From Acidobacteriaceae bacterium (GTDB lineage: Bacteria > Acidobacteriota > Terriglobia > Terriglobales > Acidobacteriaceae), in NCBI GenBank assembly GCA_030041515.1, contig JASHNS010000098.1:62001-126000 (forward strand): 64,000 bases of DNA, read 5' to 3'. Shown here piece after piece: positions 27,352 through 57,385 of the stretch. A program made the translations under genes and the position numbers. The notes beneath the pieces are model-generated. The model saw only the letters and a program-made list of their open reading frames with translations, was not told the DNA's origin and made no database searches. Position 1 is the first letter of the stretch. Every line of letters begins with the position of its first letter.

Positions 27352-27427
<76 letters not shown>

Positions 27428-29626: not shown

Positions 29627-30337
29627 ATGAGATTCCCTTCATTTGCCGTCGCTGTTCTTCTGGCGGCGCCCGCTATGCTGCTGGCGCAAAGCTCCGAGTC
29701 GTCTCCTGTGCCTGCTGGGCAGCCTCGCGTCTCCGAGGTGTCGACGGACACGCAGCTTGGGTTCAGCGAGCGCGCCCCGCGTTATCACATCCGGGAGAGC
29801 GACTCCCTCGCGTTGCAGTTCGCCTTCACGCCCGAGTTCAATCAGACCGTGGAGGTCCAGCCCGACGGGTATATCACACTGAAATCCGTTGGCACCATCA
29901 TTGCCGCGGGCCTTACTGTCCCGGAACTGACGAAGTCAATTGAACATGCCTATGCCGGCATTCTGCACGATCCGGTGGTCACGATTGACCTCAAGGATTT
30001 TGACAAGCCTTACTTCGTCGTCTCCGGTCAGGTCGCAAAGCCTGGGAAGTACGACCTTCGCAGCGACCTTACGGTGACGGAAGGCGTGGCCCTCGCGGGA
30101 GGATTTACAGAGGCGTCGAAGCACTCGCAGGTCGTCCTCTTTCGCCCCGGAGCGAACGGTCTCACCGAAGTCCGCGTGATCAATGTGAAGAAGCTCCTGC
30201 GATCGCACAACCTGCAGGAGGATGTTCACCTCCTTCCGGGCGACATGATCTTTGTGCCGCAGAACCGGATATCGAAGATTGCTCGCTATCTGCCAACCAC
30301 GGGGCTGGGCGTCTACGACAACCCCGCAATCTATTAG
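29627..30337 (+). CDS. Polysaccharide export outer-membrane protein (Wza-like)
   Basis: The 236-residue protein starts with signal peptide MRFPSFAVAVLLAAPAMLLA-QS. The Poly_export domain follows (about residues 45-125: YHIRESDSLALQFAFTPEFN, PDGYITLKSVGTIIAAGLTV). SLBB-like domains come next: YFVVSGQVAKPGKYDL and DVHLLPGDMIFVPQNR. It lacks the lipobox cysteine of Wza and is shorter than Wza (~360-380 residues). It should form the outer-membrane or periplasmic export channel. The start is preceded by cagaggtatcgaa. Confidence 0.9.
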   Translation: MRFPSFAVAVLLAAPAMLLAQSSESSPVPAGQPRVSEVSTDTQLGFSERAPRYHIRESDSLALQFAFTPEFNQTVEVQPDGYITLKSVGTIIAAGLTVPELTKSIEHAYAGILHDPVVTIDLKDFDKPYFVVSGQVAKPGKYDLRSDLTVTEGVALAGGFTEASKHSQVVLFRPGANGLTEVRVINVKKLLRSHNLQEDVHLLPGDMIFVPQNRISKIARYLPTTGLGVYDNPAIY

Positions 30338-30347
30338 GTGCACGGCT

Positions 30348-33954: not shown

Positions 33955-34035
33955 TTTCACGCCCAGATTCGATCAGATATAGGGCTGCACCGCCATTTGC
34001 GCGGAAGTACTCTGCCCCACCGGAGAAGAACAGCT

Positions 34036-35463: not shown

Positions 35464-35708
35464 CAACCTACTAATCTTGACTGACGCCGCTAAACTGCTC
35501 AACCGCTAAACCAGCCGACGCAGACCTGACTCGTGACAATCTCGAAGGCACCTCGCCTCGCTACTCCGTATCACGGCCCTCGATCGCTCGCAATGCCCGG
35601 TCTCGGGTCGATGGGAACCGAATTCTACGGCTCATGAAAGACGGGTTTTACATTCTCAGCCTCGGGCTCTAAGTCCGCCGTTTCACCATGTTGCGGAGGC
35701 AGCCACTT

Positions 35709-37676: not shown

Positions 37677-38998
37677 AGGTCGAGCGGTGCGAGGCGACGG
37701 CATGGTGGTCGTCAACAACCGCCATGACTCTACCGGAGAAGCTCGTGTGCGGTTACATAGTACTGATACCTCTTCTCTGGGCGGTAGGTTTAAACCTGCC
37801 GGTCGCGTTTGTTGTGATCTTTGGGATGTTTTTGTTTCGCGTGCGATCTCACTTCGCCTGGTTGCACGCTCTGCCTTGGTTTGTCGTCGGAGTCATGCAG
37901 ATTACATCCGTAGTCGCTAATTGGGACGATTCGATGCAACCGTGGTGGATGATTGGGAAACATCTTTTAGCCAGCTATGTTAGCGGGTGGTTCTTACTGG
38001 GCGCCGCAATTGGATTAGGGGCGAGTGGCCTTGTGCGACCCGCCAGACTCATTGATGCGATCGGGAGGCTGACGCTCTGGACAGCCCTCCTAGCGGTACC
38101 AACCATTTGCGTAGCGTACTCACTGCCTCAGCATTATCTCTATGTATTGACACCAGTCGGGCGCCTGTTGCCAGCATCTTTACCGTCGCGTGCCACTTCA
38201 TTTGGAATGTTCTTTTACAATTGGGATCATATCGCAGGAATTCATCTGCCCCGTATCGCCCTGTTCTACCCATGGCCTACAGCACTGGGCTTTGCCGGTG
38301 TATGCACCATCTTTGTCCTCTGGAAATGCCCTAACTATCGAAGCCGCATTCTAGGCATCCTCTGCGGCTTAGGAATGGTGTGCTTTAGTCTGAGTCGCAC
38401 CGCCTTAGTTGCAGTGGCCGTCTCCCTGCTGGTTCGTTGGGCGCTGACTTGGCCTGCTCGTGTCCGGGTGGCGACAGCATTTGGGGTTGCTTCCGTTTTG
38501 TGCGGTCTTTGGCTGTGCGCGGGATCTCCTGCGCAGGCTATGGCCGCTCTCGAACAGGAGCTTGAACAAACAAGGCCCGGTGCCTCCCAAGCCCGGGATG
38601 AAGTTTACAAGGCTAGCTGGGCCGGAGTCTATGAAGCTCCACTCCTCGGCCACGGTTGGCCCGGTTACTCCGTAGAGAACAACGACACAGTGTACGGAGA
38701 AGACAATGTCATGGTCGTGGGGAGTCACTCCACTATTTCGGGCCTGCTGTATAAAGGTGGAGCGATCACCTTTGGAGCACTCATTCTCGCCTTGATGTCG
38801 CTCGGCGTATCACTCCTACGCAGATGCAGCTTTGCGCTGGCCAAAGACGGCTGTGCGGTTGTGGTTGCAATTATGCTAACCGCGACTAATGAGGGACTAG
38901 AAAGCTTGGTATTCCCTACGTTATTTATATTTTTATGGCTAGGAACGGTCTTGGTGGAGCCAGATCGACTGGAGTGCTATTGTGCACACTACACTTGA
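37673..38998 (+). CDS. O-antigen ligase/polymerase-family membrane protein (Wzy-like)
   Basis: The 441-residue protein has about ten to twelve transmembrane helices. A long periplasmic loop near residues 285-360 includes SWAGVYEAPLLGHGWPGYS, the loop typical of WaaL/Wzy. Sequence between family members is poorly conserved, so the polymerase versus ligase distinction cannot be made here. The ATG overlaps the stop of the amidotransferase gene (ATGA). Base composition is lower in GC than upstream genes. Confidence 0.8.
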   Translation: MKVERCEATAWWSSTTAMTLPEKLVCGYIVLIPLLWAVGLNLPVAFVVIFGMFLFRVRSHFAWLHALPWFVVGVMQITSVVANWDDSMQPWWMIGKHLLASYVSGWFLLGAAIGLGASGLVRPARLIDAIGRLTLWTALLAVPTICVAYSLPQHYLYVLTPVGRLLPASLPSRATSFGMFFYNWDHIAGIHLPRIALFYPWPTALGFAGVCTIFVLWKCPNYRSRILGILCGLGMVCFSLSRTALVAVAVSLLVRWALTWPARVRVATAFGVASVLCGLWLCAGSPAQAMAALEQELEQTRPGASQARDEVYKASWAGVYEAPLLGHGWPGYSVENNDTVYGEDNVMVVGSHSTISGLLYKGGAITFGALILALMSLGVSLLRRCSFALAKDGCAVVVAIMLTATNEGLESLVFPTLFIFLWLGTVLVEPDRLECYCAHYT

Positions 38999-40055
38999 GA
39001 TAGCAAGTCTAAGAGGATGTACTTTAGTAAAACAAGCGACGGTGCGGGAGGAAGCACTTGACCTCTCTGTTGTCATCCCGAGCTTCAATACGGCTCGGTA
39101 TATATTGGACGCTGTCAACTCGCTGCTTGTTCAGTCGGTCGCCGGGCTCGAGATCATCATTATTGATGATGGATCGACAGATAATTACATGGATGCGTTT
39201 AACCGCATACTGGACCCACGCGTCACAATTGTCACGCAGGCCAATCGGGGACTCGCGGGTTGCCGGAACACAGGAATTCTTCTATCTCGGGCGAGGTACG
39301 TGGGGTTTCTCGATGCTGATGACATCTGGTATCCGCAGAAAGCCGAAAGACAAATGGGTGCGATGGACCGTGACCCATCAATTGGCGTAACGTTCTCCTA
39401 CTCTGCTTATCTTGATGAAGGAGGAGCACCATCTGGCCACTTGTTGACCTCACGATGTAAGCATCCGACCGCCAAGGATCTCGCCCTGCGTAACCACATC
39501 GGCAATGGCAGCAATCCGATCATCCGGCGGAAGTGCTTTGATGAGGCCGGCCTCTTCGACGAAGATCTGCGTAGTTGTGAGGACTATGAGATGTGGGTTC
39601 GAATCGCGGCGGTTACGCATTGGGGCTTTCTGTTGATTCCAGAGGTGCTGACGGGGTACCGCGTGCGCCCGGGAAGCATGACTAGTTCCTATGATACGTT
39701 TACAGGGCAAGCGCGGGTTGCCATCGACAAAATAAGGGAATATCTTCCTGAGATCTCGGTGCGCGATGGGGCACGATGTTATGCAGAGAGCCTGCGAATC
39801 GCCAGCCGGAAGGCCCTCTCCAGTGGCAACGTGCAGCTTTCCCGCGCGTTGCTGCTGGACGCCCTTCACCATTGTCCATGGCTGCCCGTCATGGATATTC
39901 GAGCAATGGGGATGCTGTGCATTCACCTTCTGTCTTTTCTGCTTCCGAAACGCAGCCAAATGACGGTGTACAGCCTTACACGCATACTTATGCGGGTGGT
40001 GTATCTCCCGCTCGACCGCACTATACGGGCCCCTATGGGACGAACGGAGCCCTAG
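38982..40055 (+). CDS. Family 2 glycosyltransferase
   Basis: The 357-residue GT-A enzyme opens near residue 28 with LSVVIPSFNTARYILDAVNS. IIIIDDGSTDN and LAGCRNTGILLSRARYVGFLDADD follow, the latter giving the DxD metal motif, and then DEDLRSCEDYEMWVRIA. It adds a sugar to the lipid-linked repeat unit on the cytoplasmic face. The start (GTG 38982) overlaps the preceding gene by 17 bp; a later GTG at 39042 is possible. The donor sugar is unknown. Confidence 0.88.
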   Translation: MHTTLEIASLRGCTLVKQATVREEALDLSVVIPSFNTARYILDAVNSLLVQSVAGLEIIIIDDGSTDNYMDAFNRILDPRVTIVTQANRGLAGCRNTGILLSRARYVGFLDADDIWYPQKAERQMGAMDRDPSIGVTFSYSAYLDEGGAPSGHLLTSRCKHPTAKDLALRNHIGNGSNPIIRRKCFDEAGLFDEDLRSCEDYEMWVRIAAVTHWGFLLIPEVLTGYRVRPGSMTSSYDTFTGQARVAIDKIREYLPEISVRDGARCYAESLRIASRKALSSGNVQLSRALLLDALHHCPWLPVMDIRAMGMLCIHLLSFLLPKRSQMTVYSLTRILMRVVYLPLDRTIRAPMGRTEP

Positions 40056-41273
40056 GTGACACTCAGTCACGCCCGTTGGTTCTCTCGCCTTCTCAGCGCG
40101 TACCGACAGGTATACGAGCGCGGTGCTGCAATCATGCTGGCAGGGCGAGCAATACAACTCCTGAATTCGTTTGGCTGGTCGATCGTTCTGATCAGGCGCT
40201 TCGGCCTCACAATGGTAGGTACGTTTGCAATCGGGTTTATTGCCGTCACCATACTATCTACGGCTTCACCGATCGGGTTGCCTTCTTTCCTGCCAAGGGT
40301 CCGACAGCCGCACGCCCGCCTATGCTTTGCCGGCATGGCGCTCCATCTGGCAGTGCTCCCGGTGATTTTGGCTGTACTGCTTGGATATTCTAGGCTGTTT
40401 GCCCAAAGCGCAATGGAAGCGAGAATTATCTTTCTCGTTGGATTGTCCGGAGTCGCAATCGGCGTTTGTAATACTGGCCTGATGCTGTCGATTATGTTGC
40501 GGAGGTTCTATCCTGCGGCGATCGCGCCGCTCATTGAGACGGTCGCTATTCTCATCACGGCGTGTGGCGCAGCGTCGCCAGATTCGGCCGCGGGATATAT
40601 GCTGATGTCGCGCGTAGGCGGAGCACTGGTAGTGTGGGCTGGGATGCGGATGTCAGTGATGTCACGTCGTCGTCTCATATATGTGCTTCGAAAGAGTGCT
40701 AGATACCTTGCCCCGGATGCGATTGCAATATGTTCGGAGCAGGCTGCGCCCTTTATATTGCAATTGTGTGTCAGCCGCGCGGAGCTCGGCCTATTTCGTC
40801 TCTGCCAGCAAATGCTGAACGCAAGTGACACACCTGGATGGACCTATGTCCAATCACAGTACCCTAATCTTGTGTACGGCAGTCGGCGTTTCTTTGGTTC
40901 CGTGCGCCGTGCGGTAGGTATAATTGCCATGATCGCGAGCGTACTCTTTGCGGCCGGCGGCACGGTGTTAGCCATCTGGGTTTATCACCTGCCAGCCATT
41001 GTCGGAATGGTATGCCTGTTGTCGGCGTCGCTATTTTGGCGATACAAGATAAATTTGTACGATCAGGGGTTCCGCGCGTCAGGACAAGTCGCGAGCTCGA
41101 CAATACTTGGGTCATTGAAGTGTGCCGTCGGCATTATTCTGCTTTTCTTCATGATTCGCTGGGAGGGTGTTTGGGGGGCAATCGGAGGTTTGACCATATT
41201 ATCGGTAGCCGCCGGATGCGTATATGAATGGGTGTATGATCGCCCCGAACTAATGGCGAGGGCAACGTCGTGA
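40056..41273 (+). CDS. Polysaccharide/oligosaccharide flippase (Wzx-like)
   Basis: The 405-residue protein has about twelve transmembrane helices and resembles the MATE/MOP exporter superfamily. It begins near AAIMLAGRAIQLLNSFGWSI and holds LRKSARYLAPDAIAICSEQA mid-protein. It is likely to move the lipid-linked repeat unit across the inner membrane. The GTG start follows the previous stop with no gap. It overlaps the next gene by 4 bp (GTGA). The family call rests on topology and context more than on motifs. Confidence 0.78.
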   Translation: MTLSHARWFSRLLSAYRQVYERGAAIMLAGRAIQLLNSFGWSIVLIRRFGLTMVGTFAIGFIAVTILSTASPIGLPSFLPRVRQPHARLCFAGMALHLAVLPVILAVLLGYSRLFAQSAMEARIIFLVGLSGVAIGVCNTGLMLSIMLRRFYPAAIAPLIETVAILITACGAASPDSAAGYMLMSRVGGALVVWAGMRMSVMSRRRLIYVLRKSARYLAPDAIAICSEQAAPFILQLCVSRAELGLFRLCQQMLNASDTPGWTYVQSQYPNLVYGSRRFFGSVRRAVGIIAMIASVLFAAGGTVLAIWVYHLPAIVGMVCLLSASLFWRYKINLYDQGFRASGQVASSTILGSLKCAVGIILLFFMIRWEGVWGAIGGLTILSVAAGCVYEWVYDRPELMARATS

Positions 41274-42277
41274 AGACTTCCAGACGCGACCCCCTTGTCA
41301 GCGTGGTGATGCCTGCCTTCAATGTAGAGCGCTTCATCACGCGTTCTGTGGAATCAGTTCTCGGGCAGACGTTCCCGGACTTCGAGATAGTGGTAGTTGA
41401 CGATGGCTCTACCGATAAAACCGTCGAGATGTTGCTGCCCTTTTCTGACCATCGCCTCCGTATTATCAAACAGGCACACTCCGGCTCGTCCGCGGCGCGG
41501 AACGTCGGCGTTGAGCTGACCACAGGGCCCTATATCGCATTTCTTGATGGGGACGACCTGTGGGCACCGGAAAAGCTTGACCGCCACGTCAAGTTTCTCG
41601 AGGACCATCCCGAGGTCGATTTGACGTTTTCGCATTCGCACGTAATTGACGAGAACGGACTCTCAACCGGCCGTGTGAGTCGTCTTGTACATGGCTATAT
41701 ATCGTTTCGACGCCTTCTGATCGAAAATGTCGTCCATAACGGCTCGGCAGTTGTCATGCGAAGGGACGCCATCGAAAGGGCGGGCCGGTTTGACGTCACG
41801 CTACCGTCCGCGGTTGACCATGATCTATGGCTGCGTGTCGCGCTCGCGCGCCACAACAACATCTGTTGTATTCCGCAAGTTCTGACGTTTTACCGGATGA
41901 GAGAGGGACAGGTTACCAAGGACTGGCGCCGAATGGAAGCATCCTGGACCATGCTGATTGACAAAATGCGGCGCTTGGCACCGGCTGAAGTTGCGGCGGT
42001 TGAGATGAAGGCACGCTCAGGCTTCTATCGCTATCTTGCCTACATTGCATACGAAACCACTCAGTATGGTGAGTCCCGGGCCCTATTCTGTAAAGCATGG
42101 CGCGGAGACTGCGCTCACCTCCTCTTTGATCGGCGCATGTGGCTACTCGCCGCAGCACTGACAACCCGGACCGTCCTTCCCACTCCACTGCACCGGCAAC
42201 TAGACCGTCTTGCGCGAGACTTCCGTTCACGTCGGGAGGCGCCCATCGACCGTGTTGAAGCAGCACATGGCAACTAG
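41270..42277 (+). CDS. Family 2 glycosyltransferase
   Basis: The 335-residue protein begins with RDPLVSVVMPAFNVERFIT. It shows IVVVDDGSTDKT and SSAARNVGVELTTGPYIAFLDGDD (metal motif D-G-D-D), then FDVTLPSAVDHDLWLRVA. It is related to the GT2 at 38982 but not a close copy. It starts at a GTG overlapping the flippase stop. It probably contributes one linkage of the repeat unit. Confidence 0.9.
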   Translation: MKTSRRDPLVSVVMPAFNVERFITRSVESVLGQTFPDFEIVVVDDGSTDKTVEMLLPFSDHRLRIIKQAHSGSSAARNVGVELTTGPYIAFLDGDDLWAPEKLDRHVKFLEDHPEVDLTFSHSHVIDENGLSTGRVSRLVHGYISFRRLLIENVVHNGSAVVMRRDAIERAGRFDVTLPSAVDHDLWLRVALARHNNICCIPQVLTFYRMREGQVTKDWRRMEASWTMLIDKMRRLAPAEVAAVEMKARSGFYRYLAYIAYETTQYGESRALFCKAWRGDCAHLLFDRRMWLLAAALTTRTVLPTPLHRQLDRLARDFRSRREAPIDRVEAAHGN

Positions 42278-42288
42278 GGAGAAGTGCA

Positions 42289-43728
42289 ATGCTCCGTAGA
42301 CTCTTCGTTGGCACTGTCTGCGTCATATTTGTTGCTTTGTCGAGCTGCAAGCGCCAGCCCTCTGTGGCTTCATTTCCTGCAAAAGACGAGTCCCTGTTGG
42401 CAGCTTTTCGCATCAACGACCATCCCGACGCACGGGCTTATGACGACCTATTCTTATACTTCTTGCAGGGCTTTGAGAGCTACCGGGTACCTTCAGGCTC
42501 GATGGCCGTTTATCCAGGCCTGCCCAGCCGCCACGGCCGCATTGCTGATGGGATGGAGGGGTTCGCCAGAAGCGCGCCATTGTGGGGCGCGTGGGTTTCC
42601 TCCGGCCGGCCCTCGGTGGTCAGGTTGCCCGGGGGACAACTTGTCGATCTGAATGCGTCGTTCAGGGAAGGCATTCTTAGCGGCACGAATCCACACTCAC
42701 CGGGATACTGGGGCACCATTCCCTATTTCGATAACCAGCGCATTGTGGAGGCGTCCGACATCGCGCTGAGCCTCTGGTTGTTCCGTAGTACGGTGTGGCG
42801 AGACTTCACGCCTACCCAGAGACGGCAGGTGGCGAGCTGGCTATATCAGGTTAATAACAAACATACGCCTGACAATAACTGGCGCCTATTTATTACCTTT
42901 GTAAACGTGGTTCTCAGCAAGTTGGGCGCTCCGGCCGACATGGACCGAGCGGTAGCGAACTATCAACGCATAAAAAGCTTCTATCGTGGAGATGGGTGGT
43001 TCAGCGATGGACCCGGACGCGTCTTCGACTACTATAATGCCTGGAGCTTCCATTACCAACTCTACTGGCTGCAACAGGTTGCCCCCCAATGGGACAACAG
43101 CTTCATTACTACTGCACGAGACTGCTTCGTCACTGACTACCAGTACCTTGTCAGCACGACTGGCGTCCCAATATTTGGTCGAAGCATATGCTATCGTACT
43201 GCAGCCGTCGCTCCGTTGATATTTGGTGCCGACGACAAGAGTGGAGATATCAGCCCTGCCATCGCGCGTCGCGCACTAGACGTCACTTGGACATACTTCA
43301 TACGACATGGCGCCTTGCGGAATGGCAATATTACCCAAGGATACTGCGGTCCTGACGCCCGGGTGCTCGACAACTACTCCGGTCCAGCAAGCTGCCTTTG
43401 GGGCCTCCGCTCACTGATCGCAGCATTCTACAAAAGGCCTACTTCGGTCTTCTGGTCCGGCCCTCCCGGGAAGCTGCCGGTCGAAATTAGAAGTTACACG
43501 GTCGCCATTCCCGCCACGGGCTGGAATGTTATAGGTGATCAGGTGTCGGGCAGAGTTGAGATAGTAATGCCAGTAGGGTCCCAGCGAACGCCTCTTCAAC
43601 CCTACGGCTGGTGGCGCAAACTGGCTAGTGCGGTTCTCTGGCGGCCGTTTCGTCCGGATAACACTGCTGCAAAATATGGGCTGCAGCGATACTGGTCTAC
43701 ACCCCCCTTTTGTGGATGCCTTAAGTAG
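42289..43728 (+). CDS. DUF2264 family lipoprotein in the EPS cluster
   Basis: The 479-residue protein has an N-terminal lipoprotein signal, MLRRLFVGTVCVIFVALSSC, with the lipobox ending in Cys20. The body matches DUF2264: SPGYWGTIPYFDNQRIVEAS, RRQVASWLYQVNNKHTPDNNW, then FSDGPGRVFDYYNAWSFHYQ. DUF2264 proteins are thought to fold as alpha/alpha toroids like glycoside hydrolases and lyases of uronates, so a surface enzyme trimming or modifying the polymer is plausible. The exact reaction is unknown. It lies 11 bp after the GT2 gene and is probably co-transcribed. Confidence 0.82.
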   Translation: MLRRLFVGTVCVIFVALSSCKRQPSVASFPAKDESLLAAFRINDHPDARAYDDLFLYFLQGFESYRVPSGSMAVYPGLPSRHGRIADGMEGFARSAPLWGAWVSSGRPSVVRLPGGQLVDLNASFREGILSGTNPHSPGYWGTIPYFDNQRIVEASDIALSLWLFRSTVWRDFTPTQRRQVASWLYQVNNKHTPDNNWRLFITFVNVVLSKLGAPADMDRAVANYQRIKSFYRGDGWFSDGPGRVFDYYNAWSFHYQLYWLQQVAPQWDNSFITTARDCFVTDYQYLVSTTGVPIFGRSICYRTAAVAPLIFGADDKSGDISPAIARRALDVTWTYFIRHGALRNGNITQGYCGPDARVLDNYSGPASCLWGLRSLIAAFYKRPTSVFWSGPPGKLPVEIRSYTVAIPATGWNVIGDQVSGRVEIVMPVGSQRTPLQPYGWWRKLASAVLWRPFRPDNTAAKYGLQRYWSTPPFCGCLK

Positions 43729-43960
43729 GATCAGTCTTCCGCATTTAGTAACACCATTCCAGATGCGTCAGTGAAATGGCTTTGCGGGATAAGGGCACGC
43801 CGTGCAGAGCCCTGAAACCTGCCAACTTCCGCTGCCGACTGGGTATCTGCTCCTTGACTATCTGACGTCGGCAATGCGATTCCTATTCTGAATAGGTATA
43901 TCGTCACCCACGGCCCGCCAGTACCTTGTGAGCGGGCACATTGGAAATGGAGAGCCTAAC

Positions 43961-45001
43961 ATGCGCGTTCTTTTGATTGGTGGAAGTGGTTTTATCGGAT
44001 CTCATCTCGTAGATGCGTTTTTATGCAACGGCATGAACATTGTTGTCCTAGATCACCGCCGAGAGAAATTTAGGCCGCCTAACCCAAAGATATCGTTCGT
44101 GCAGGGCGACATGAGTGACCGTACCGTCGTCGAAGAGATAATTGCCGGCGGATGTGACCGGGTCATTCTCCTTGCATCCAGTACAATCCCACATACGTCC
44201 AACCAAAACCGCTTTCTCGACGTCCAGACTAACATGCTGGGTACTATTGCCGTATTGGATCTATGTGTTAAGCACAAGGTCGATAAGGTACTTTTCGCCT
44301 CATCGGGTGGAACTGTGTATGGAGTCCCTCGCTCTCTACCGATCACAGAAGATCACCCGACCGATCCATATTGCTCATACGGTATTGTTAAGCTGGCCAT
44401 AGAAAAGTATTTGCATTTGTACTACCATCTCTTCGGTCTAAAGTACCTAGTGTTTAGGCTGTCCAACCCCTACGGCATCCGGCAGGATCCCAATGCTGCT
44501 CAGGGTATCATATCGGTTTTTGCAGCAAGGATGCTGCAGGGTAAGACTCTTACGCTGTGGGGCGACGGCAGCGCGGTCAGAGATTTCGTCCATGTGACGG
44601 ATGTTGCGGACTTGTTCTGTACCGCCATACGTTCAGATGCAGTGGGCATCTTCAACGTTGGGAGCGGGGTGGGAGTCACTATCAATGACCTGCTAAGTCT
44701 GATCTCATCTCGGCTGCATACGGAGCCGCTAATTACTCGTGAGCCGTCGAGGAAGGCAGACGTGCCTGCGATTATTTTGGATTGCGATAAAGCTACCCGG
44801 AAGTTTCAGTGGACCGCAAAGCGGTCATTAGAGCGAGGTATCGATGATATCGCGTATTGGCTACGTACAGAGGGAAGTGACGGGAACTGGCATGAGAAGA
44901 TATTAAACACAGCACCCGCCGTGGGCGCGGTTCAGCCTATGGCAGCAGATTATATGACGGCGCAGGTCGGGCCTATTTCCTCCAACACTTTCATGCGTTA
45001 A
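43961..45001 (+). CDS. NAD-dependent epimerase/dehydratase (GalE-like)
   Basis: The 346-residue extended SDR opens MRVLLIGGSGFIGSHLVDAF. A putative catalytic Tyr-x3-Lys appears in YCSYGIVKLAIEKY, and LSNPYGIRQDP is also family-typical. It probably epimerises or otherwise modifies an NDP-sugar for the polymer. Substrate specificity is not clear. ATG 43961 follows ggagagcctaac; the frame runs upstream to 43928 without a better start. A 232-bp gap separates it from the DUF2264 gene and contains AGTACCTTG at 43920. Confidence 0.88.
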   Translation: MRVLLIGGSGFIGSHLVDAFLCNGMNIVVLDHRREKFRPPNPKISFVQGDMSDRTVVEEIIAGGCDRVILLASSTIPHTSNQNRFLDVQTNMLGTIAVLDLCVKHKVDKVLFASSGGTVYGVPRSLPITEDHPTDPYCSYGIVKLAIEKYLHLYYHLFGLKYLVFRLSNPYGIRQDPNAAQGIISVFAARMLQGKTLTLWGDGSAVRDFVHVTDVADLFCTAIRSDAVGIFNVGSGVGVTINDLLSLISSRLHTEPLITREPSRKADVPAIILDCDKATRKFQWTAKRSLERGIDDIAYWLRTEGSDGNWHEKILNTAPAVGAVQPMAADYMTAQVGPISSNTFMR

Positions 45002-45112
45002 CAATGTGGTTCGGATGGCTAGCGGGTCGAGCGCGGTAGAGTTTCGTCTTCATAGCCGCAGGCACCGTATTTCAAGCAACATTGGCCGGCTACGGAGGTG
45101 CGCTTGAGTGCG

Positions 45113-46372
45113 ATGAATCAGGTGCCATTACGGATAGCTGTAATCGGCCCCCGCGGCATGCCGAGCAATTATAGCGGCATTGAGCGTGCATGTGAAAGCC
45201 TGTACGCCCGACTCGCGGCGCGGGGACACCAAATTACGCTGTATTGCCGCAGCGACAGCCAAGCAACCCGAGTCGAGTACTATCGCGGCATTCGCCTGCT
45301 ACATCACTATGTTCCCAAGTGCCGATCCCTCGAAACTCTTGTTGCCTCATTTTCTGGCCTTCTACATGCGGTCATGGTGGAGCGGTACGATATCATTCAT
45401 CTGCACGCACTTGCCCCCGGTCTGTTTACACGCGTGCCTCGTCTGTGGAGGGTTCCGACCGTCGTTACCATTCACGGCCTCGATTGGCAACGGGCCAAAT
45501 GGAAGGGACTTGGGTCGAGGGTCTTACGAAGAGCGGAAGTATCGATCGCGCGGCACGCTACTGAGATCATTGCGATTTCGAGGGATCTACAGAACCACTT
45601 CCTACGTCAATACGCGCTAGATATTCCGTATATCCCAAATGGCATCGAGAGATCTGCGGCTGCGGATTTAGATGAAGGGGTGTTGAGAACATTTGATCTC
45701 ACTCCTCAGTCGTTCATTAGCTATGTTGGCAGATTAGTTCCTGAGAAGAGAATCGAGGACGTTATTGTAGCGTTCCGTCGGGTTAATACCGCTTACAAGT
45801 TGGCAATCGTCGGTGAATCTGGATCCAAGCCGGGGTACATGGAGCGATTGAGCCGTGTTGCCGAAGGCGATTCCCGTATTGTATTTACGGGCCACCAGAG
45901 GGGCCTTGCACTCAATACATTGTACCAGCGAGCGTCCGCATTTGTCCTTGCATCAGAACTGGAAGGCCTCCCGATGTCACTGTTGGAGGCGATGGAGCGT
46001 GGTATACCCGCCGTAGTGAGCGATATACCTCCGCATCGAGAGTTGCTCGGATCCATTAAGGGCTATGATCTGTTCTTTCCCTGCAAGGACATCGATACAC
46101 TTGCAAGCCGATTCGTTCGGGTTGTGGAACACCGTGAGCATTACACTGAGGTCGCATCACTCGCGCAAGCATTTGTGCGTGAGTCATATTCTTGGGACGT
46201 CACCGCCGATGCGACCGAGAGGTTGTTCTATCGGGTTATCCGGAATTGGGAGAGACCACCCGCTTCCCCGCGGCGCGGATGGACTCGGACAGGAGTTGGT
46301 ATTGACGCTGATGAGCATGTGCCGTCCTCTGAGAGTGTAGAAGCCCCCGCTGCGGGTTTCGGTGTCGGTTGA
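45113..46372 (+). CDS. Family 4 glycosyltransferase (GT-B)
   Basis: The 419-residue GT-B protein begins near LRIAVIGPRGMPSNYSGIER, the glycine-rich N-domain. DIIHLHALAPGLF follows in the N-domain. The C-domain has ISYVGRLVPEKRIEDVIVAF, GHQRGLALNTLYQRASAFVL and the E-x7-E motif in ASELEGLPMSLLEAMERGIP. It is a retaining glycosyltransferase of the polymer. The start is uncertain: ggagg stands near 45094-45098, and GTG 45098, TTG 45104 and ATG 45113 are all in frame. It is the last gene of the low-GC part on this strand. Confidence 0.9.
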   Translation: MNQVPLRIAVIGPRGMPSNYSGIERACESLYARLAARGHQITLYCRSDSQATRVEYYRGIRLLHHYVPKCRSLETLVASFSGLLHAVMVERYDIIHLHALAPGLFTRVPRLWRVPTVVTIHGLDWQRAKWKGLGSRVLRRAEVSIARHATEIIAISRDLQNHFLRQYALDIPYIPNGIERSAAADLDEGVLRTFDLTPQSFISYVGRLVPEKRIEDVIVAFRRVNTAYKLAIVGESGSKPGYMERLSRVAEGDSRIVFTGHQRGLALNTLYQRASAFVLASELEGLPMSLLEAMERGIPAVVSDIPPHRELLGSIKGYDLFFPCKDIDTLASRFVRVVEHREHYTEVASLAQAFVRESYSWDVTADATERLFYRVIRNWERPPASPRRGWTRTGVGIDADEHVPSSESVEAPAAGFGVG

Positions 46373-49852: not shown

Positions 49853-50872
49853 ATGCGGATCCTAGTAACGGGCGGCGCAGGCTTTCTTGGTTCGCACCTG
49901 TGCGATGCATTGCTGGCGGAGGGTCATACCGTCGTTGCGGTAGACAATCTCCTAACAGGCAGACTGAGCAATTTGGAGCACCTGGCATGCGAATCGCGCT
50001 TCAAGTTCGAGTTGCATGACATCTGCGAGCCATTCGACTACGGCAAAGTGGACTATGTCTTCGACTTTGCATCACCTGCGAGCCCTGTCGATTACATGAC
50101 ACACCCAGTCGAGACTCTTAGAGTTGGCTCGCTGGGTGTATTCAATGCCCTGGATGTAGCACGCAAATACAACGCCAGATTCCTGATCTCTTCCACGTCC
50201 GAGTGTTACGGGGATCCGCTCGAACATCCCCAGCGCGAAACCTATTGGGGACACGTGAATCCGATCGGTCCGCGCTCGGTATACGACGAGGCGAAACGCT
50301 TCGCGGAAGCTGCCACCATGGCGTATGCGCGTTACCACAAGGTGGACACGCGCATTGTCCGCATCTTCAACACCTATGGTCCGCGTCTGCAACTGATTGA
50401 CGGACGCGTGATTTCCAATTTCATGCGCCAGGCAATGCGCGGGGAGGATCTGACTGTCTATGGAGACGGTCTGCAAACGCGAAGCTTTTGCTACGTCTCC
50501 GACGAAATTGATGGAATCCTGCGCTTGGCACATTCAGATGAGCGCTTGCCTACCAATATTGGCAACCCTCGCGAGTTCACTATTCTGGAATGCGCTGAAT
50601 TGGTATTAAAGGTCACCTCGTCCAGGAGCCGAATCGTCTTTGAACCATTGCCTGTGGACGATCCGAAGCAGCGTTGCCCCGACATCTCGAAAGCCTGGCA
50701 AAAGTTGTGTTGGCAACCAAAGATCGATCTGGAAGCTGGATTGAGGCTCTCGATGGACTATTTTCGGAAGTGCCTGGGTGCCGAAGAGACACCTGTTCGC
50801 CCTGCAACCAAGGGCTCCAGCCCGATTGGCACTCGCCCAAAGGATGGTGCTGTTCCCATCGCCTTGGGCTGA
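49853..50872 (+). CDS. UDP-glucuronate decarboxylase (UDP-xylose synthase)
   Basis: The 339-residue SDR begins [20 protein letters not shown]. The UXS-specific pattern is [20 protein letters not shown], then [22 protein letters not shown] and [17 protein letters not shown], which carries the catalytic Tyr-x3-Lys. [19 protein letters not shown] is also typical. It turns UDP-glucuronate into UDP-xylose and needs the UDP-glucose dehydrogenase encoded just downstream. The pair would supply xylose and glucuronate for the polymer. Its GC content is between that of the low-GC patch and the ugd gene. Confidence 0.92.
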
Positions 50873-51122: not shown

Positions 51123-52643
51123 ATGAAGGACCAAATCCAAATCTATATTGTTGGATCGGGCTACGTCGGCCTGGTCGCGGCGGCGTGCTTCGCTGAGATC
51201 GGGCACCGTGTGGTGTGCGTGGACAACGACGAAGCCAAAGTGCAAATGCTGCGCGAGGGCGGCGTGCCGATCCACGAGGAGTATCTGCCCGAGCTGCTGA
51301 ACCGGCACCGCGCGAACCGGGTGGAGTTCACGAGCGACCTGAAATCGGCGGCGCGGGCGGCGCAGGCGATCTTTATCGCGGTCGGAACGCCACAGAGCGA
51401 GACCGGCAGCGCGGATTTGTCGTATGTCGATGCCGTCGCCAGCGAAATCGCCCGCTCGATCGGCGACTATAAAGTGATTGTCGAGAAGAGCACGGTCCCC
51501 GTCTACACGAACGAGTGGATTCGCAAGGTCGTGGAGCGTAACGGCGTTCCGCAGGATCTGTTCGACGTGGCCTCGAACCCCGAGTTTTTGCGCGAAGGAA
51601 CAGCGGTAGTGGATTTCCTGCACCCGGACCGGATTGTGCTCGGTGCGCAGACTGAACGTGCGGCGGCGGTGCTGCGGGCAATCTATGAGCCCCTGACCTC
51701 CGGAGCGTATTACCGCGTGGACCATGCGGTGCCGGGGCCGCGGACCAGCGACGATCCGCCGCCGGTGCTGCTGACCACAACTAAGGCGGCGGAGATCATC
51801 AAGCACGCGTCGAATGCGTTTCTGGCGACGAAGATTTCGTTCATCAACGTGGTGGCGAACATATGCGAGGAGGTGGGTGCGGACGTGCAGGATGTCGCGC
51901 GTGGCATGGGGCTGGACAGCCGCATCGGACCGAAATTCCTGCGTGCGGGGATTGGGTACGGCGGATCATGCTTTCCGAAGGATGTGGCGGCATTCCGGCA
52001 CGTAGCGGAGCAGATGAACGTGGACTTCGGGCTGCTGGAAGAAGTGGAGAAGATTAACGCCGAGCAAAAGCGGCGGTTCTTCCAGAAAGTACGGTCGGCG
52101 CTATGGACATTCCGGGGGAAGAAGATCGCGGCGCTGGGGCTGGCCTTCAAAGGCGGGACGGATGACATTCGCGAATCGCCGGCGCTGGAGATTGTGGAGA
52201 TGATGCTGCGCGAAGGGGCTCTGGTGCGGGCGTACGATCCGGCGGCGGCGGCGCGAGCGAGCGAGATGATCCCCGCAGGACCGCAGATGCGGTACATGGA
52301 CGATCCATACGAGGCAGCGCGAGATGCGGACGCGGTGGTGATCCTGAATGACTGGCAGGAGTTTGCGGAATTGGATTTGCCACGGCTGAAGAAGACTATG
52401 CACTTCCCGATAATTGTTGACGGGAGAAATCTCTACGCCCCACAGGTACCGCTGGAGCTCGGGTTTACCTACATCAGCATCGGGCGACCCGCCGCTCATG
52501 GGCTCACAGTTTCCGTAGAGCGGGCTGGATCGGACCTTCGCCGGCCGGCAATGCAGGCCAGAGCTTTCGTTCCCCCGCGAATCGCGCCGCTTGTAGGCTG
52601 CGAGACTCAAACCGGAACCTTGGCCCGTTCAGAGGGAGCCTAA
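51123..52643 (+). CDS. ugd: UDP-glucose 6-dehydrogenase
   Basis: The 506-residue protein has the N-terminal Rossmann start IYIVGSGYVGLVAAACFAEIG. SNPEFLREGTAVVDFLHPDR follows, and the catalytic cysteine lies in GIGYGGSCFPKDVAA. The C-terminal domain follows (GLAFKGGTDDIRESPALEIV). It makes UDP-glucuronate from UDP-glucose with two NAD+. The last ~45 residues after the usual end of the family are not conserved and may be a lineage-specific tail. Its GC content is clearly higher than the glycosyltransferase genes before it, so it probably belongs to the stable backbone and not to the exchanged cassette. Confidence 0.95.
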   Translation: MKDQIQIYIVGSGYVGLVAAACFAEIGHRVVCVDNDEAKVQMLREGGVPIHEEYLPELLNRHRANRVEFTSDLKSAARAAQAIFIAVGTPQSETGSADLSYVDAVASEIARSIGDYKVIVEKSTVPVYTNEWIRKVVERNGVPQDLFDVASNPEFLREGTAVVDFLHPDRIVLGAQTERAAAVLRAIYEPLTSGAYYRVDHAVPGPRTSDDPPPVLLTTTKAAEIIKHASNAFLATKISFINVVANICEEVGADVQDVARGMGLDSRIGPKFLRAGIGYGGSCFPKDVAAFRHVAEQMNVDFGLLEEVEKINAEQKRRFFQKVRSALWTFRGKKIAALGLAFKGGTDDIRESPALEIVEMMLREGALVRAYDPAAAARASEMIPAGPQMRYMDDPYEAARDADAVVILNDWQEFAELDLPRLKKTMHFPIIVDGRNLYAPQVPLELGFTYISIGRPAAHGLTVSVERAGSDLRRPAMQARAFVPPRIAPLVGCETQTGTLARSEGA

Positions 52644-52824: not shown

Positions 52825-52960
52825 TTTCTGTCTGGGGTAGACCAATTTAAGGAATGTCATTGGCGATGGTCTTTAACTTTGCTGGAACAATCACGAGGGG
52901 ATAAGTGGTGCATAGTTCCGTAATGCGGGTTCTATTACCAAAGGGCACCCCTTTATGCCC

Positions 52961-52989
52961 TTGACATCTGCCCTGGTGGGCTGCACACT
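52961..52989 (+). promoter_or_regulatory. Possible sigma70-type promoter of the first LuxR gene
   Basis: TTGACA stands at 52961-52966. Seventeen bases later is cacact, a poor -10. It lies about 145 bp upstream of the chosen start. The -35 is perfect but the -10 is weak. Confidence 0.3.
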
Positions 52990-53133
52990 TGCGCCTAATC
53001 GATTGTCGCCTGCTGAATGGCTCTCGAGAGGCTGCGTACATGCAGCTTTGGCTGTCCGTCGTGTGGGTTCCTGCTCCCCTGGCCTCACCTGGCCGCCATC
53101 CCAGAGAGTCGCGAGTTGCGCCGAAGGGGGCGA

Positions 53134-53919
53134 ATGGTGCCAGATCGACGGGGAGTGACCATCCTGATAGCCTCGGGGAATGTTCTGTCCTGCGAGCTTT
53201 ATGCGAAGGCACTTAGTCAGCATCCAGGGTTTCAGGTTGTCGGCTGCGTGACCGGCGTCGATGACGCAGTGCGGGCAATTGCGTCCATGGCTGTCAACAT
53301 AGCCCTGATCAGCACCACCCTTCAGGATGCTCCCCTCAGCGGACTGACAACATTGCGGCTGATCTGTAAGGCGAATGCCGAGAGCAAGCCAATCCTCTTG
53401 TTCGAGCCGACCGAAACAAACCTGATTGTGACCGCGTTTCGCGATGGCGCCCGGGGCGTTTTCTGCCCTGCGGAGGATGGCTTTGAGATGCTTTGCCGCT
53501 GTGTCGAGCAGGTTCATGCCGGCCAGATCTGGGCGAATAGCGCGCAACTCCGGGAAGTGCTGGCCGCCTTCTCGCGGCGCGCTCCGTTGCGGATCGTCGG
53601 TTCAGATGGGGCCGCGCTGCTGACTCCCCGCGAGGAGGACGTTGTGCGGCTGGTGGAGGAAGGCCTCACCAACCGGGAGATAGCGCGGGAACTAATCCTC
53701 AGCGAATATACGGTGCGGAACAATCTATTCCGCATCTTCGAGAAGCTGGGGGTTTCCACTCGCGTTGAGCTTACGCTCTACGCGCTTAACCACTGCGTTC
53801 CTGCAGTCCCGGAGAATGACGACGGACGGGCAAAGGCTGAGGCGCTTTCGCTTCGAAAGCGTCCTTCGGTGAGCTACCCGATCAGTTTCACCCCTGAGAG
53901 CGAGAATGCTCGCGGCTGA
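53134..53919 (+). CDS. LuxR-type regulator with degenerate receiver domain (paralogue 1)
   Basis: The 261-residue protein has a receiver-like N-domain (about residues 8-125) and a LuxR helix-turn-helix (LLTPREEDVVRLVEEGLTNR, EYTVRNNLFRIFEKLGVSTR, about 162-215). Receiver hallmarks are lost: A13-S14 replace the acidic pair, S60 stands where the phospho-aspartate should be, and the conserved Lys site reads FCPAED. It should not be phosphorylated and may act constitutively or by ligand. The start 53134 is aligned with its paralogue (both MVP) and has aaggggg upstream. It is very similar to the gene at 56557. Confidence 0.87.
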   Translation: MVPDRRGVTILIASGNVLSCELYAKALSQHPGFQVVGCVTGVDDAVRAIASMAVNIALISTTLQDAPLSGLTTLRLICKANAESKPILLFEPTETNLIVTAFRDGARGVFCPAEDGFEMLCRCVEQVHAGQIWANSAQLREVLAAFSRRAPLRIVGSDGAALLTPREEDVVRLVEEGLTNREIARELILSEYTVRNNLFRIFEKLGVSTRVELTLYALNHCVPAVPENDDGRAKAEALSLRKRPSVSYPISFTPESENARG

Positions 53920-54021
53920 GGTCAGGAGCGACATCATCTCGCTGCCTCAAGGCACCCCTTCGGCACAGGCAGCGAGATTGGGTCTCTCTCGAGCACCCGG
54001 CTGCGCCCCCCGAACAGGGCC

Positions 54022-56163
54022 TCAGGGTAGCTTGAAATGGAGCGAGTAAATCTCCTGGCTGCTGGCATCTCGAATGAGCAGCAGTGATTTATCCGGTGCG
54101 ATGGCGAGCCGCCCGGACGGGCCTGACCTGAAGCTGGCGAGACTGGCGACTTTTTCAATCTTGCGGGATTTCAGGACGATCCGGAAGATACCGTCCTTGA
54201 GGTAATAGTCCACGAAATACAAAGCATCGCCAGTTGGCGACCATACCAGATCTGCTATGGGGCTGGTTTTCGCCAGGCGAGACCACTTGCCCGCAGCGAC
54301 ATCGAACAGCATCACGGTGCGGTTGTCGGCAGTCAGAGCCGCGATGTAGTCCCCCTGGGGGGACCATCGGGCGCTCCAGAGACCTTGCGAGCCAGGCACG
54401 GTGGAAACCTGCCCGCTCGCCATCGAGTACAAGTGGATCGTCAGGCGGGAGGCAGGCCACACCCCCGGGCGGTAGAGATCGCCAAACACAAGAAACTTAC
54501 CGTCGGGAGACCAGGTGGGAAAGCCCTGCTCGCCCTGCGTATGCGGGATGGGCCGCAGCTCGCCGCCGGAAGAGGGAATCAGGTATAGCTGCCAGGCATC
54601 CTGGCGATTCGCTCCTTCCGCCATAAACGCGATCCATTTGCCGTCCGGCGACCAGGCCGGCACCCTGGCGGTCAGGGAAGCCGGAGAGAGCTTCACCGGA
54701 TCAGTACCGTCAAGCCGGCTCCGCCAGAGGCTGCCGCCCGGGTAGGAAACGTACGCCAGCCATCGGCCGTCGTGTGAAAAAGCCAGTTGCTGGGCGGAAA
54801 TGGGTGCAAGATACGGCACAAAGCGAGACTTTCCCGCATCGTAGCGCACCACTTCGGAGCGCGCCTGGACGCCGATCACAAAGATGTCCCGTCCTCCGGG
54901 ACTGGGAATCGGAGACGTTTGTTCCATCAGGCCCTGCGCGAGCAGGATCGGCTTTCCTATTTTCCGCTGCAGCCAACTGGTGCGGTCTCGAACGGCCCCG
55001 ATGCCCCAGCGACCCTCGCTCAGGTTTTGAAAGATAAAGTACTTGCCCCCTGCGACCCACTCTCCGTGCATCTGGCCGCCGGACTCTCTCCAGTCGGGGA
55101 ATAGTGGGCGCAAGTCTTTGCCGTCGCGGTCAAGCTGCCAGATCGATTGCCGATCCCCCGCACCATTCAGGGTAAAGCGAATAACGCGGCCGTCCGGAGA
55201 CCAGGCGAGGTCCATCGCGCTTCCGGGCGTGCGCGCGAGCTCACGGACGTGAGCGCCTTCGGCATCGCATAAGTAGATACCATCAGCCGAGGAATACGCG
55301 ATGGTTTTGCCGTTGGGAGACCATGTAGCCGCGCCCGCCATGATGTTTCCGACTTCCCTGGCGTCCCCCGCTGGCATCTTGAGAGCCCAAAGGGAACCCC
55401 CGTTGCGTCCGACAAGATCGATGGCCAGCAATTCCGAGCGGACGGCACTGAAGTCCTCCACCACAGGATTCTTGAGAGGACTGGGCAGAGGTTCAACCCT
55501 GCCTCCTGCGGTTGATACCTGGACGAGGGTGGGGCCGCCCTTTCGGACTTCTTTGAAGTAAAGGGTCGAGCCGTTGACAGCGATTCCGGCGAACCCGTCC
55601 ACTGCGTTGGCAGCTGTCTTCGGCAAGCCGTCGTTGGTGATCTGCGTGACTCCCAACAATTGCGGCTTCGGCTGGGGGCGGAACTCCAAAATACATAGAA
55701 AAGCGACGGCCAGCATTGCGGAACCCGCCACGATCCCAATTCGAGACGTTTGCCTCGCGCGTTCCCGGGGTAGCGACGGAACCGGCTGCGACGCGCCGCC
55801 GTTCTCGTCGACGCTGATCTGGCCGATGAACCGGTAGCCCCGACGCGGGAGGGTCTCAATGTAGCGAGGAACGTCGGCATCGTCCCCTAACGCAGCGCGG
55901 AGCTTGGCGATAGCAATGTTCAGACTGCGGTCGAAATCCACATGGGTATCGCCCCCCCATAGCTGGTGCCGCAGCTCGTCGCGCGTAATCGTCTCTCCAG
56001 GACGCCGCAGCAAGAGGGCCAGGATCTGGAACGGTTTGTCCTGGAGTCTGACCTGAAGGCCCTTGCGCCGCAGTTCCCCCGAATCCAAGTTGATCTCGAA
56101 GATGCCAAACCGGATTACGCCCTTGGCCGAGGAGCCTTCGAGAACAGCCTTGGTTGCAGACAT
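54022..56163 (-). CDS. Winged-helix DNA-binding membrane protein with PD40/TolB-like propeller
   Basis: The 713-residue protein has an OmpR/CadC-type winged helix at residues ~18-115 (VIRFGIFEINLDSGELRRKG, GDDADVPRYIETLPRRGYRF). A single transmembrane helix follows near 140-160 (IGIVAGSAMLAVAFLCILEF). An extracytoplasmic WD40-like beta-propeller repeats the SPDGKWIAF/SPNGKTIAYS motif at least six times. This CadC-like layout would let an outside signal alter transcription directly. It lies between two paralogous LuxR-type genes, the first convergent (about 100 bp apart) and the second divergent. The ligand is unknown. Confidence 0.92.
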   Translation of the reverse strand: MSATKAVLEGSSAKGVIRFGIFEINLDSGELRRKGLQVRLQDKPFQILALLLRRPGETITRDELRHQLWGGDTHVDFDRSLNIAIAKLRAALGDDADVPRYIETLPRRGYRFIGQISVDENGGASQPVPSLPRERARQTSRIGIVAGSAMLAVAFLCILEFRPQPKPQLLGVTQITNDGLPKTAANAVDGFAGIAVNGSTLYFKEVRKGGPTLVQVSTAGGRVEPLPSPLKNPVVEDFSAVRSELLAIDLVGRNGGSLWALKMPAGDAREVGNIMAGAATWSPNGKTIAYSSADGIYLCDAEGAHVRELARTPGSAMDLAWSPDGRVIRFTLNGAGDRQSIWQLDRDGKDLRPLFPDWRESGGQMHGEWVAGGKYFIFQNLSEGRWGIGAVRDRTSWLQRKIGKPILLAQGLMEQTSPIPSPGGRDIFVIGVQARSEVVRYDAGKSRFVPYLAPISAQQLAFSHDGRWLAYVSYPGGSLWRSRLDGTDPVKLSPASLTARVPAWSPDGKWIAFMAEGANRQDAWQLYLIPSSGGELRPIPHTQGEQGFPTWSPDGKFLVFGDLYRPGVWPASRLTIHLYSMASGQVSTVPGSQGLWSARWSPQGDYIAALTADNRTVMLFDVAAGKWSRLAKTSPIADLVWSPTGDALYFVDYYLKDGIFRIVLKSRKIEKVASLASFRSGPSGRLAIAPDKSLLLIRDASSQEIYSLHFKLP

Positions 56164-56556
56164 TCAGCCCGCCACTTTAGTTGCTGGCAAGCGCCTGCAT
56201 CACCACCGGTTGCCCGTGCCGTGCGCATGCCTGGGTCCAGAATTGGGGAAGGGGTGTTATCGATGCTAGCATCCTTCACCAAATTAGATGCAGATCGCGA
56301 CAGCCCTCAAGTTTTCCATCGGGAAACCATGGACCGTAACTATCTGTAGCCAAAGCTGATAGCAGGAAATAAGAAATTAACTGGCAGATGGGTTGACACA
56401 TATTCGGCGTCCGCCCTACATGGAAGAATGCATCGGTAACTCAGGTGGGCCGCCCTTTGGCGATCAGACCTCATATACGAGTTCTGGCGCCGCAGCGTTT
56501 CTGCGAGCCAACGCGCATGGAATTCAAAACCCCAGTGGTGCTTCAGTTGAGGGCAG
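56164..56556. other. 393-bp divergent intergenic region
   Basis: It separates the winged-helix gene (minus) from the second LuxR-type gene (plus). Apart from a possible plus-strand promoter at 56393 I see no gene or clear repeat. It presumably holds the promoters of both genes. Confidence 0.5.
56393..56421 (+). promoter_or_regulatory. Possible sigma70-type promoter of the second LuxR gene
   Basis: TTGACA at 56393-56398 is followed after 17 bases by ctacat, a moderate -10. It lies ~135 bp before the coding start. The first paralogue has a TTGACA at a similar distance. Confidence 0.35.
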
Positions 56557-57333
56557 ATGGTGCCAACGCGACGGGAAGTCTCGATCTTGATAACCTCAGG
56601 GAACGTTCTTGCCTGCGAGCTTTATGCGCAGGCACTGAGTCAACATTCATATTTTCAGGTTGTTGGGCGGGTGGCCACCGTCGACGATGCAGTGCGGGCG
56701 GTTGAGTCTATGGCCGTCAGCATTGCCCTCATTAGCACCACGCTGCAGGATGGTCCCCTCAGTGGACTGGCGGCATTGCGGCGAATTTACAGGGCAAACG
56801 CCGAGGTCAAGCCGATCATGCTGTTTGAGGCTTCCGAAGCGAACCTGATGGTGAGTGCGTTTCGAAACGGGGCCAGGGGCGTTTTTTGTCCGGCGGAGGA
56901 TGGCTTTGGGATGCTTTGCCGGTGTGTCGAGCAGGTTCATGCCGGTCAAATCTGGGCAAAAAGCGCACAACTCCGGGAAGTGCTGGCCGCCTTCTCGCGG
57001 CGGGCTCCGGTTCAAATCGTCAATTCTCATGGAGTGCGGCTGTTGACTCCCCGTGAGGAAGACATTGTGCGGCTGGTGGAGGAAGGCCTCACCAACCGGC
57101 AGATAGCACAGGAACTGAAGCTCAGCGAATATACGGTGCGGAACAATCTATTCCGAATCTTCGAGAAGCTGGGGGTTTCCACCCGGGTTGAGCTTACGCT
57201 CTACGCGCTCAATAACCTCGTTCCGGCTGCAGAAAAGAATGATGGCGGCCCGGCAAGGGCTGCGGCTCTATCCCTTCGGAAGCGTCCGGCGGCGAGTTGC
57301 GGTATTGGTTTAGCCTTTCGCGCTCAACCCTAG
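56557..57333 (+). CDS. LuxR-type regulator with degenerate receiver domain (paralogue 2)
   Basis: The 258-residue protein is closely similar to the product of 53134 along its whole length. EYTVRNNLFRIFEKLGVSTR and the CPAEDGF...MLCRCVEQVHAG stretch are identical or nearly so. The receiver carries the same losses: no acidic pair in LITSGNVLACE, serine in ALISTTLQDG, and no conserved lysine. The LuxR helix-turn-helix is intact. Differences concentrate in the early receiver region and the C-terminal tail. Both genes point the same way and bracket the winged-helix gene, so a local duplication is likely. Confidence 0.88.
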   Translation: MVPTRREVSILITSGNVLACELYAQALSQHSYFQVVGRVATVDDAVRAVESMAVSIALISTTLQDGPLSGLAALRRIYRANAEVKPIMLFEASEANLMVSAFRNGARGVFCPAEDGFGMLCRCVEQVHAGQIWAKSAQLREVLAAFSRRAPVQIVNSHGVRLLTPREEDIVRLVEEGLTNRQIAQELKLSEYTVRNNLFRIFEKLGVSTRVELTLYALNNLVPAAEKNDGGPARAAALSLRKRPAASCGIGLAFRAQP

Positions 57334-57385
57334 TTTTAGCCTTTTAGCAGAGGGCCCTTGCGCGGTTTGCTGCCTGGGATGAGGC

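Follow-up and report, generated by a model that had tools for sequence, protein, structure and literature searches.

Introduction

Response regulators of the NarL/FixJ type join a receiver domain to a LuxR-type helix-turn-helix (HTH), and the two proteins described here, termed A and B, resemble them in domain order, fold and HTH but have lost the receiver active site. The atypical LuxR-type regulators VpsT and CsgD, which act on the biofilm matrix and hence on the same kind of target as the one proposed below, have the same architecture as A and B; VpsT is also among the best PDB matches of A by both sequence and fold. EpsA (TIGR03020), an XrtB/PEP-CTERM-associated LuxR protein, shares the LuxR HTH and carries an association with exopolysaccharide (EPS) and PEP-CTERM in its name, whereas A (47.9 bits) and B (46.5 bits) stay far below the model's cut-off of 170 and match it in the HTH only. 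Finally, CadC/ToxR-like one-component regulators possess an N-terminal OmpR-type winged HTH (wHTH), which they share with the PD40 protein encoded between A and B; this protein scores 29.3 bits against the CadC model (cut-off 400), and its C-terminal part is a PD40 propeller instead.

Acidobacteriota are abundant soil bacteria, and the protein family to which A and B belong offers a handle on EPS control in this group. The response regulators known as PsR or ALR likewise have a receiver without some or all of the catalytic residues, which in A and B is joined to a DNA-binding domain. Acidobacteria rank second in the average number of ALRs per genome (PMC4395418), and a 2025 review of pseudo-receivers calls their on/off mechanisms a mystery (PMC12632262). 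The passages of both articles considered here do not describe an EPS-linked LuxR family, and in the literature searched, judged by titles and the openings of abstracts, we found no name for an EPS-linked family of pseudo-receiver LuxR proteins. For the question of how pseudo-receivers switch, the family described below offers a testable system: it has a gene partner that recurs, some of its members carry a candidate operator, and one family-specific cysteine is conserved.

A and B lack the receiver active site and retain a LuxR-type HTH

The window, i.e. the whole stretch of 64,000 nucleotides that was analyzed, contains two genes for LuxR-type pseudo-receiver regulators on the forward strand, B at 53134..53919 (261 aa) and A at 56557..57333 (258 aa). 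The ATG-GTG start of B at 53134 corresponds to the start of A, and the 300-aa open reading frame beginning at 53017 is, as read from the sequence, an upstream extension of B. Both proteins are 78% identical across 252 residues (197 of 258 residues in the full-length alignment, 76–78% overall), and their coding sequences share 81.5% identity over 746 bp; a comparison of the upstream DNA of both genes yielded short matches at chance level only.

An earlier reading of this DNA, here called the initial annotation, had described A and B as paralogues that keep an intact LuxR HTH and lack the acidic pair, the phospho-aspartate (serine instead) and the conserved lysine of the receiver. Both statements hold. 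The Pfam GerE/LuxR model is matched with 53.8 bits by B and 55.5 bits by A, far above its cut-off of 23.5, and the Response_reg model stays under its cut-off of 30.2 in both proteins (19.1 and 26.1 bits). We read the active-site positions from alignments to NarL and to 40 canonical regulators encoded by members of the same bacterial family. In A, these positions are occupied by S14 and G15 (acidic pair), S60 (phospho-Asp), F90 (switch Thr) and P112 (Lys), and B carries identical residues, so that the complete canonical NarL/FixJ set of acidic pair, phospho-Asp, Thr/Ser and Lys is lost in both. This supports the assignment of A and B as pseudo-receiver regulators that would be incapable of the usual phosphate uptake and whose LuxR DNA-binding domain is intact in sequence. 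Cys123 and Trp133 are kept in both proteins, and at positions 192 and 197 of the HTH they deviate from the rest of their family.

An AlphaFold2 model of A, calculated from three sequences, displays a receiver and an HTH fold with a mean pLDDT of 65.9, most receiver blocks lying between 68 and 88. In Foldseek, LiaR, VraR, ChrA and DesR are the best PDB matches of this model; VpsT follows at rank 10, NarL at rank 12. The c-di-GMP motif of VpsT reads W-[FLM]-[TS]-R. The corresponding residues are W-A-K-S in A and W-A-N-S in B, i.e. the tryptophan is kept and the arginine is absent. Across the 86 family sequences introduced below, the residue three positions after W133 is one of S, T, A and N in 84 cases, and in the other two it is I and G. 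Neither A nor B contains a stop codon, and their comparison yields a dN/dS of 0.26 (dS 0.57, dN 0.15; Nei-Gojobori, one pair). Hence, both genes have been maintained under purifying selection on average.

A and B belong to a family of pseudo-receiver LuxR proteins

We searched 398 genomes of this bacterial family, among them the own genome, and found relatives of A and B at E<=1e-30 in 153; at this threshold, none of the 11 congeners has one. A class-level search with another member of the family found it in 50 of 299 genomes, including families f5, f7, f8 and f12. For comparative purposes we assembled 75 family neighbourhoods from 67 genomes (L080–L094 and L127–L186), a set in which top-ranked matches and genus g7 dominate, many genomes are related and some loci were picked for pairs. 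The controls were 40 neighbourhoods (L187–L226) around canonical regulators of the NarL type. All of these regulators are related to a single one encoded in the own genome, and to increase their diversity most were taken from the lower-ranked hits.

The family alignment comprises 86 rows, namely A, B and 84 distinct rows from these loci (E<=1e-28). The phospho-aspartate is missing in 85 rows and the lysine is kept in none of the 86, whereas 35 of the 40 controls retain acidic pair, Asp and Lys and 38 have Thr or Ser at the switch position. The initial annotation had noted that the losses are shared by the two paralogues; A and B do carry the same residues, but the absence of Asp, Lys and switch Thr is not peculiar to this pair, as a large family shares it. 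At position 14, Asp is found in 71 and Glu in four of the 86 rows and Ser in A and B, which according to this alignment have additionally lost an acidic residue that most of the family keeps.

Cys123 occurs in 85 of 86 rows as opposed to three of 40 controls, in 37 of which the position is an alanine, and Phe102, Gln131 and Ala134 are further family-specific residues. Trp133 is invariant (86/86), yet also common among the controls (21/40). We also considered a strict C-C-C-H metal site formed by Cys111, Cys121, Cys123 and His128; since Cys111 is present in 53, Cys121 in 63 and His128 in 41 of the 86 rows, next to the nearly invariant Cys123, such a site is not uniform across the family.

In a tree of the 86 family rows and six of the 40 controls, the family forms one clade (100/100) in which A and B are sisters (100/99) and group with rows from L080–L085 of the genera g9 and g82 (100/96). 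The membership of A and B in the family is therefore evident from their position within the clade together with the conserved Cys123 and Trp133. Paired regulators are also found at other loci. In L091 (7797-11912) and L094 (8114-11962), two distinct, deep clades of pseudo-receiver LuxR proteins bracket an ATPase of the TIGR03015 type, which scores under the cut-off of that model, and a gene of an uncharacterized 245-aa protein family, whose product is here about 255–262 aa long and in the L091 copy has no Pfam match. The same two clades are paired in L178, L180 and L182, another pair type is present in L092, L181 and L183, and L085 of genome G413 contains a tandem with one short frame. Since different pair types occur at several loci, the pairing of these regulators appears to have arisen more than once.

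The wHTH-PD40 gene is probably an independent neighbour

The gene between B and A (54022..56163, reverse strand) encodes a 713-aa protein with Pfam matches to Trans_reg_C and PD40 repeats, and by eye a hydrophobic segment follows the wHTH. The initial annotation had proposed a regulatory triad of A, B and this protein. The gene order at 53134-57333, in which A and B bracket a winged-helix/PD40 protein, is confirmed. As regards the triad itself, its synteny in other genomes had been named beforehand as the check that could refute it, and the triad is not kept in relatives. A 71% orthologue of the PD40 protein exists in the congener G009, a genome without a relative of A or B at E<=1e-30. At this locus (L079:5271-10924) a TrwC relaxase gene adjoins, which is why the orthologue may be cargo of a mobile element, and no other similarity to this part of the window was found. 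Among the 75 family neighbourhoods, a wHTH-PD40 protein is encoded in one (L173), about 6 kb from luxR, and PD40 proteins without that wHTH are encoded in two more, L083 (divergent neighbour, 32% identity) and L143; the 40 control neighbourhoods contain no PD40 protein and in one case a related wHTH alone. The own genome yields nine matches to the PD40 protein at E<=1e-10, itself included, some of which are pieces of one gene. Because the orthologue in G009 lies at an unrelated locus and a single wHTH-PD40 gene is present in 75 neighbourhoods, we reject the triad as a conserved unit, and the PD40 gene is probably an independent neighbour of A and B.

Members of the family usually adjoin EPS genes

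To describe the surroundings of the family, we used the EPS proteins of the window as phmmer queries (E<=1e-10) for four core markers: export protein, Wzz, ATPase and sugar transferase. At least one of them is encoded near 58 of the 75 family members and near none of the 40 controls, the mean stretch length being 15.1 kb for the family and 16.7 kb for the controls; two or more are encoded near 45 of the 75. The proportion is 52 of 66 when nine pair or extra loci are left aside and 38 of 48 for loci with 6 kb or more on each side. The remaining 17 of the 75 neighbourhoods contain no core marker, which counts against EPS control by A and B. Where an export gene is present, it lies divergent from and upstream of luxR in 45 of 47 loci, usually followed by wzz, the gene of the 245-aa protein, often a UpxY/RfaH-like NusG gene, and genes for a sugar transferase, a Wzy_C protein and a glycosyltransferase. 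The contig JAICYR010000015.1 of a metagenome-assembled genome is an example, with luxR divergent from export and wzz genes. Across the 398 genomes, a LuxR relative is found in 90 of 95 genomes with wzz (E<=1e-100) versus 63 of 303 others (Fisher p about 1e-40, with kinship ignored).

In G232, a relative of A and B heads an EPS operon that is collinear with that of the window, with identities of 79% (export), 81% (wzz), 66% (ATPase) and 72% (transferase). In G322, luxR is located at the end of one contig, and the same EPS operon starts another. For the seven nearest-clade relatives at six loci (L080–L085), EPS head genes are nearby only in G232 and G341, which again counts against EPS control by A and B, although contig ends truncate two of the remaining four loci.

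Of 31 non-redundant regions between divergent luxR and EPS genes, 24 contain a near-palindrome, GTCYACNAAAGTRGAC, in 46 instances altogether, which makes it a candidate operator. At a score of at least 18, the family neighbourhoods (1.13 Mb) hold 51 sites and the controls (668 kb) one, an excess near luxR that is not independent, since the motif was discovered in part of the same regions. Except for one site, situated 203 bp inside the stop-to-stop luxR frame (L162), all of the 51 fall into the range from 600 bp upstream of this frame to 150 bp inside it. In a split-half check, 12 of 16 held-out regions exceeded the 99th percentile of the scores in 1,099 control windows; since the starting consensus was drawn from all regions, this check is not fully independent either. 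In the window, the best score is 13.5, which is under 18 and within the range of the control maxima, and no site is present in the intergenic stretch 56164..56556, which separates A from the divergently oriented PD40 gene; this absence of the family's candidate operator counts against assigning A and B to EPS control.

Exact copies of GTCYACNAAAGTRGAC were found in none of the own genome, G232 and G322. In total, 34 exact sites are present in 12 of 27 genomes, nine of them by their coordinates just upstream of family luxR genes. Near 22 of the other 25 sites (20 regions), no LuxR relative at E<=1e-5 was detected; most of these 22 are part of a longer repeated context, by eye a dispersed repeat of about 100 bp, and the genomes with copies elsewhere mostly belong to g7. 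Since exact copies occur away from luxR, many of them in the dispersed repeat, GTCYACNAAAGTRGAC is not confined to EPS promoters, and its connection with the LuxR protein is tentative. It is a candidate lead for other branches of the family. In the g7 loci L236–L254, the dispersed repeat of about 100 bp contains GTCTAC..GTAGAC, and many copies carry a palindrome resembling GTACYTTATAARGTAC.

A and B lie at the tail of an EPS cluster

The EPS cluster of the window spans 28.5-52.6 kb, just upstream of B, and by sequence it appears related to clusters of the XrtA/PEP-CTERM kind, although all XrtA/PEP-CTERM models that match it remain under their cut-offs. It starts with a small gene (28501..28914, forward strand, like the further cluster genes below except where noted), which is 49% identical to L081 8920-9327; homologues of this gene head EPS operons in relatives, and one starts the G322 contig. 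The next genes encode a polysaccharide export protein (Poly_export/SLBB, 29627..30337), a Wzz-type chain-length determinant (30252..31826), an AAA ATPase related to the XrtA/PEP-CTERM system-associated TIGR03015 (31835..33238; 225.6 bits, cut-off 324.5) and a polyprenyl glycosylphosphotransferase, i.e. the EPS sugar transferase (33997..35463; 410 bits for TIGR03025, over cut-off). The stretch 35688..46372 holds genes for an amidotransferase, a Wzy_C protein, two GT2 glycosyltransferases, a DUF2264 protein, an epimerase-like and a GT4-like protein and one protein without NCBIfam match. The last sugar genes code for an NAD-dependent epimerase/dehydratase of nucleotide sugars (49853..50872; homologues in eight of 75 neighbourhoods by clustering, seven by phmmer) and a UDP-glucose/GDP-mannose dehydrogenase family protein (51123..52643; homologues in eight of 75 neighbourhoods and one of 40 controls). 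A 1037-aa choice-of-anchor D/ASH-domain protein is encoded inside the cluster on the reverse strand (46393-49506).

Only these last sugar genes fall within 10 kb of B. Instead of standing divergent at the head, A and B are located about 24-28 kb downstream of the head genes, which counts against their acting on EPS, and a search of the operon's head for a LuxR remnant found none. The Wzz protein is closest to genus g9 (G232 81%, G322 66%, G382 59%) and has a match at 1e-100 in one of 11 congeners (G003, 42%). Taking this kinship together with that of A and B to the same genus and with the collinear operon in G232 and G322, the sequences suggest the same donor lineage for both regulators and cluster.

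On the right flank, a gene for a TonB-type receptor (59079-63131) and a GH28 gene (63159) keep their order in the congeners G001 and G009. In G006, the receptor alone is seen, at a contig end, and the other eight congeners have no match to it at 1e-200. To the left of the cluster, a tRNA-Met gene (27352-27427) and a short phage-integrase fragment (27767-28261) mark a possible island edge (27352-28261); a search for an att-like repeat of the tRNA-Met gene at the island ends returned nothing beyond 11-base chance matches. A promoter and terminator scan of 52400-57600 detected no promoter-like site, and terminator-like sites were at chance level. A DUF535 gene (VirK/YbjX type) follows closely downstream of A on the same strand (57386-58486).

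Discussion

We consider it likely that A and B are phosphorylation-independent transcription regulators of the LuxR/NarL type that act on the adjacent EPS cluster. Since their family usually adjoins genes for making and exporting EPS, they probably control the sugar coat rather than act with the gene between them. In such a scheme, the protein would dimerize without phosphate, and the dimer would bind a promoter region that serves luxR as well as the EPS operon, in keeping with the divergent arrangement of luxR and export gene in most relatives that have the latter. Binding would thereby set the level of EPS as well as that of the regulator. A lineage resembling genus g9 may have been the source of the EPS cluster together with one luxR gene. 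This gene, which now lies at the cluster's tail, would then have been duplicated and both copies kept under selection. The regulator might be switched through thiol chemistry at the conserved cysteine, by a ligand or a partner protein, or by its own abundance; control by abundance combined with autoregulation is the simplest guess.

A and B might have a target other than the EPS cluster, e.g. the DUF535 gene downstream or genes located elsewhere, in which case the linkage to EPS seen in their relatives would no longer hold for them. The position of the DUF535 gene, which has a relative in just one of 11 congeners (G002, 39%), would fit this, as would the deviating HTH positions 192 and 197 and the window's lack of the family operator. 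However, DUF535 is encoded in none of the 75 family neighbourhoods, and the cluster's Wzz as well as A and B have close relatives in genus g9, so that we regard a different target as unlikely. Quite improbable in our view is a signalling module in which the membrane-bound wHTH-PD40 protein senses outside the cytoplasm and hands over to the two pseudo-receivers. The bracketing of the PD40 gene by A and B, its divergent orientation to A and the PD40 protein divergent from a relative of A in G413 speak in its favor, but the G413 protein is only 32% identical and has no Trans_reg_C match at its N-terminus, the single wHTH-PD40 gene among the neighbourhoods is 6 kb off, the 71% orthologue resides in a genome devoid of a LuxR relative at E<=1e-30 and the own genome holds further homologues.

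A and B might also be decaying genes, i.e. degenerate regulators on an acquired island. While their acidic pair is more degenerate than in most of the family, their setting is island-like and the 11 congeners lack relatives, both reading frames are intact, the HTH matches are strong and Cys123 and Trp133 are retained. Given also the dN/dS of 0.26 from the one Nei-Gojobori pair, which lowered our rating of this explanation, decay is very improbable. For A and B we thus favor the regulation of the adjacent EPS cluster. A broader proposal would place the Wzz/Wzy-type EPS operons of Acidobacteriota under class-wide, phosphate-free control by this family. The family-specific cysteines (Cys123, Cys121 and Cys111) would then have replaced the phospho-aspartate as input and would render EPS production redox- or metal-responsive; we deem this proposal rather unlikely.

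Two further protein families recur in the neighbourhoods. The family of a PilZ-TonB_C fusion (example L141:6845-7747) is encoded near luxR in 17 of 75 cases, which hints at a possible link to c-di-GMP. In 19 of the 75 neighbourhoods (L137:9063-9488 and 18 others), luxR is followed in the same orientation by the gene of a protein of roughly 141 aa, which is hydrophobic by eye and, in the example scanned, matches no Pfam model.
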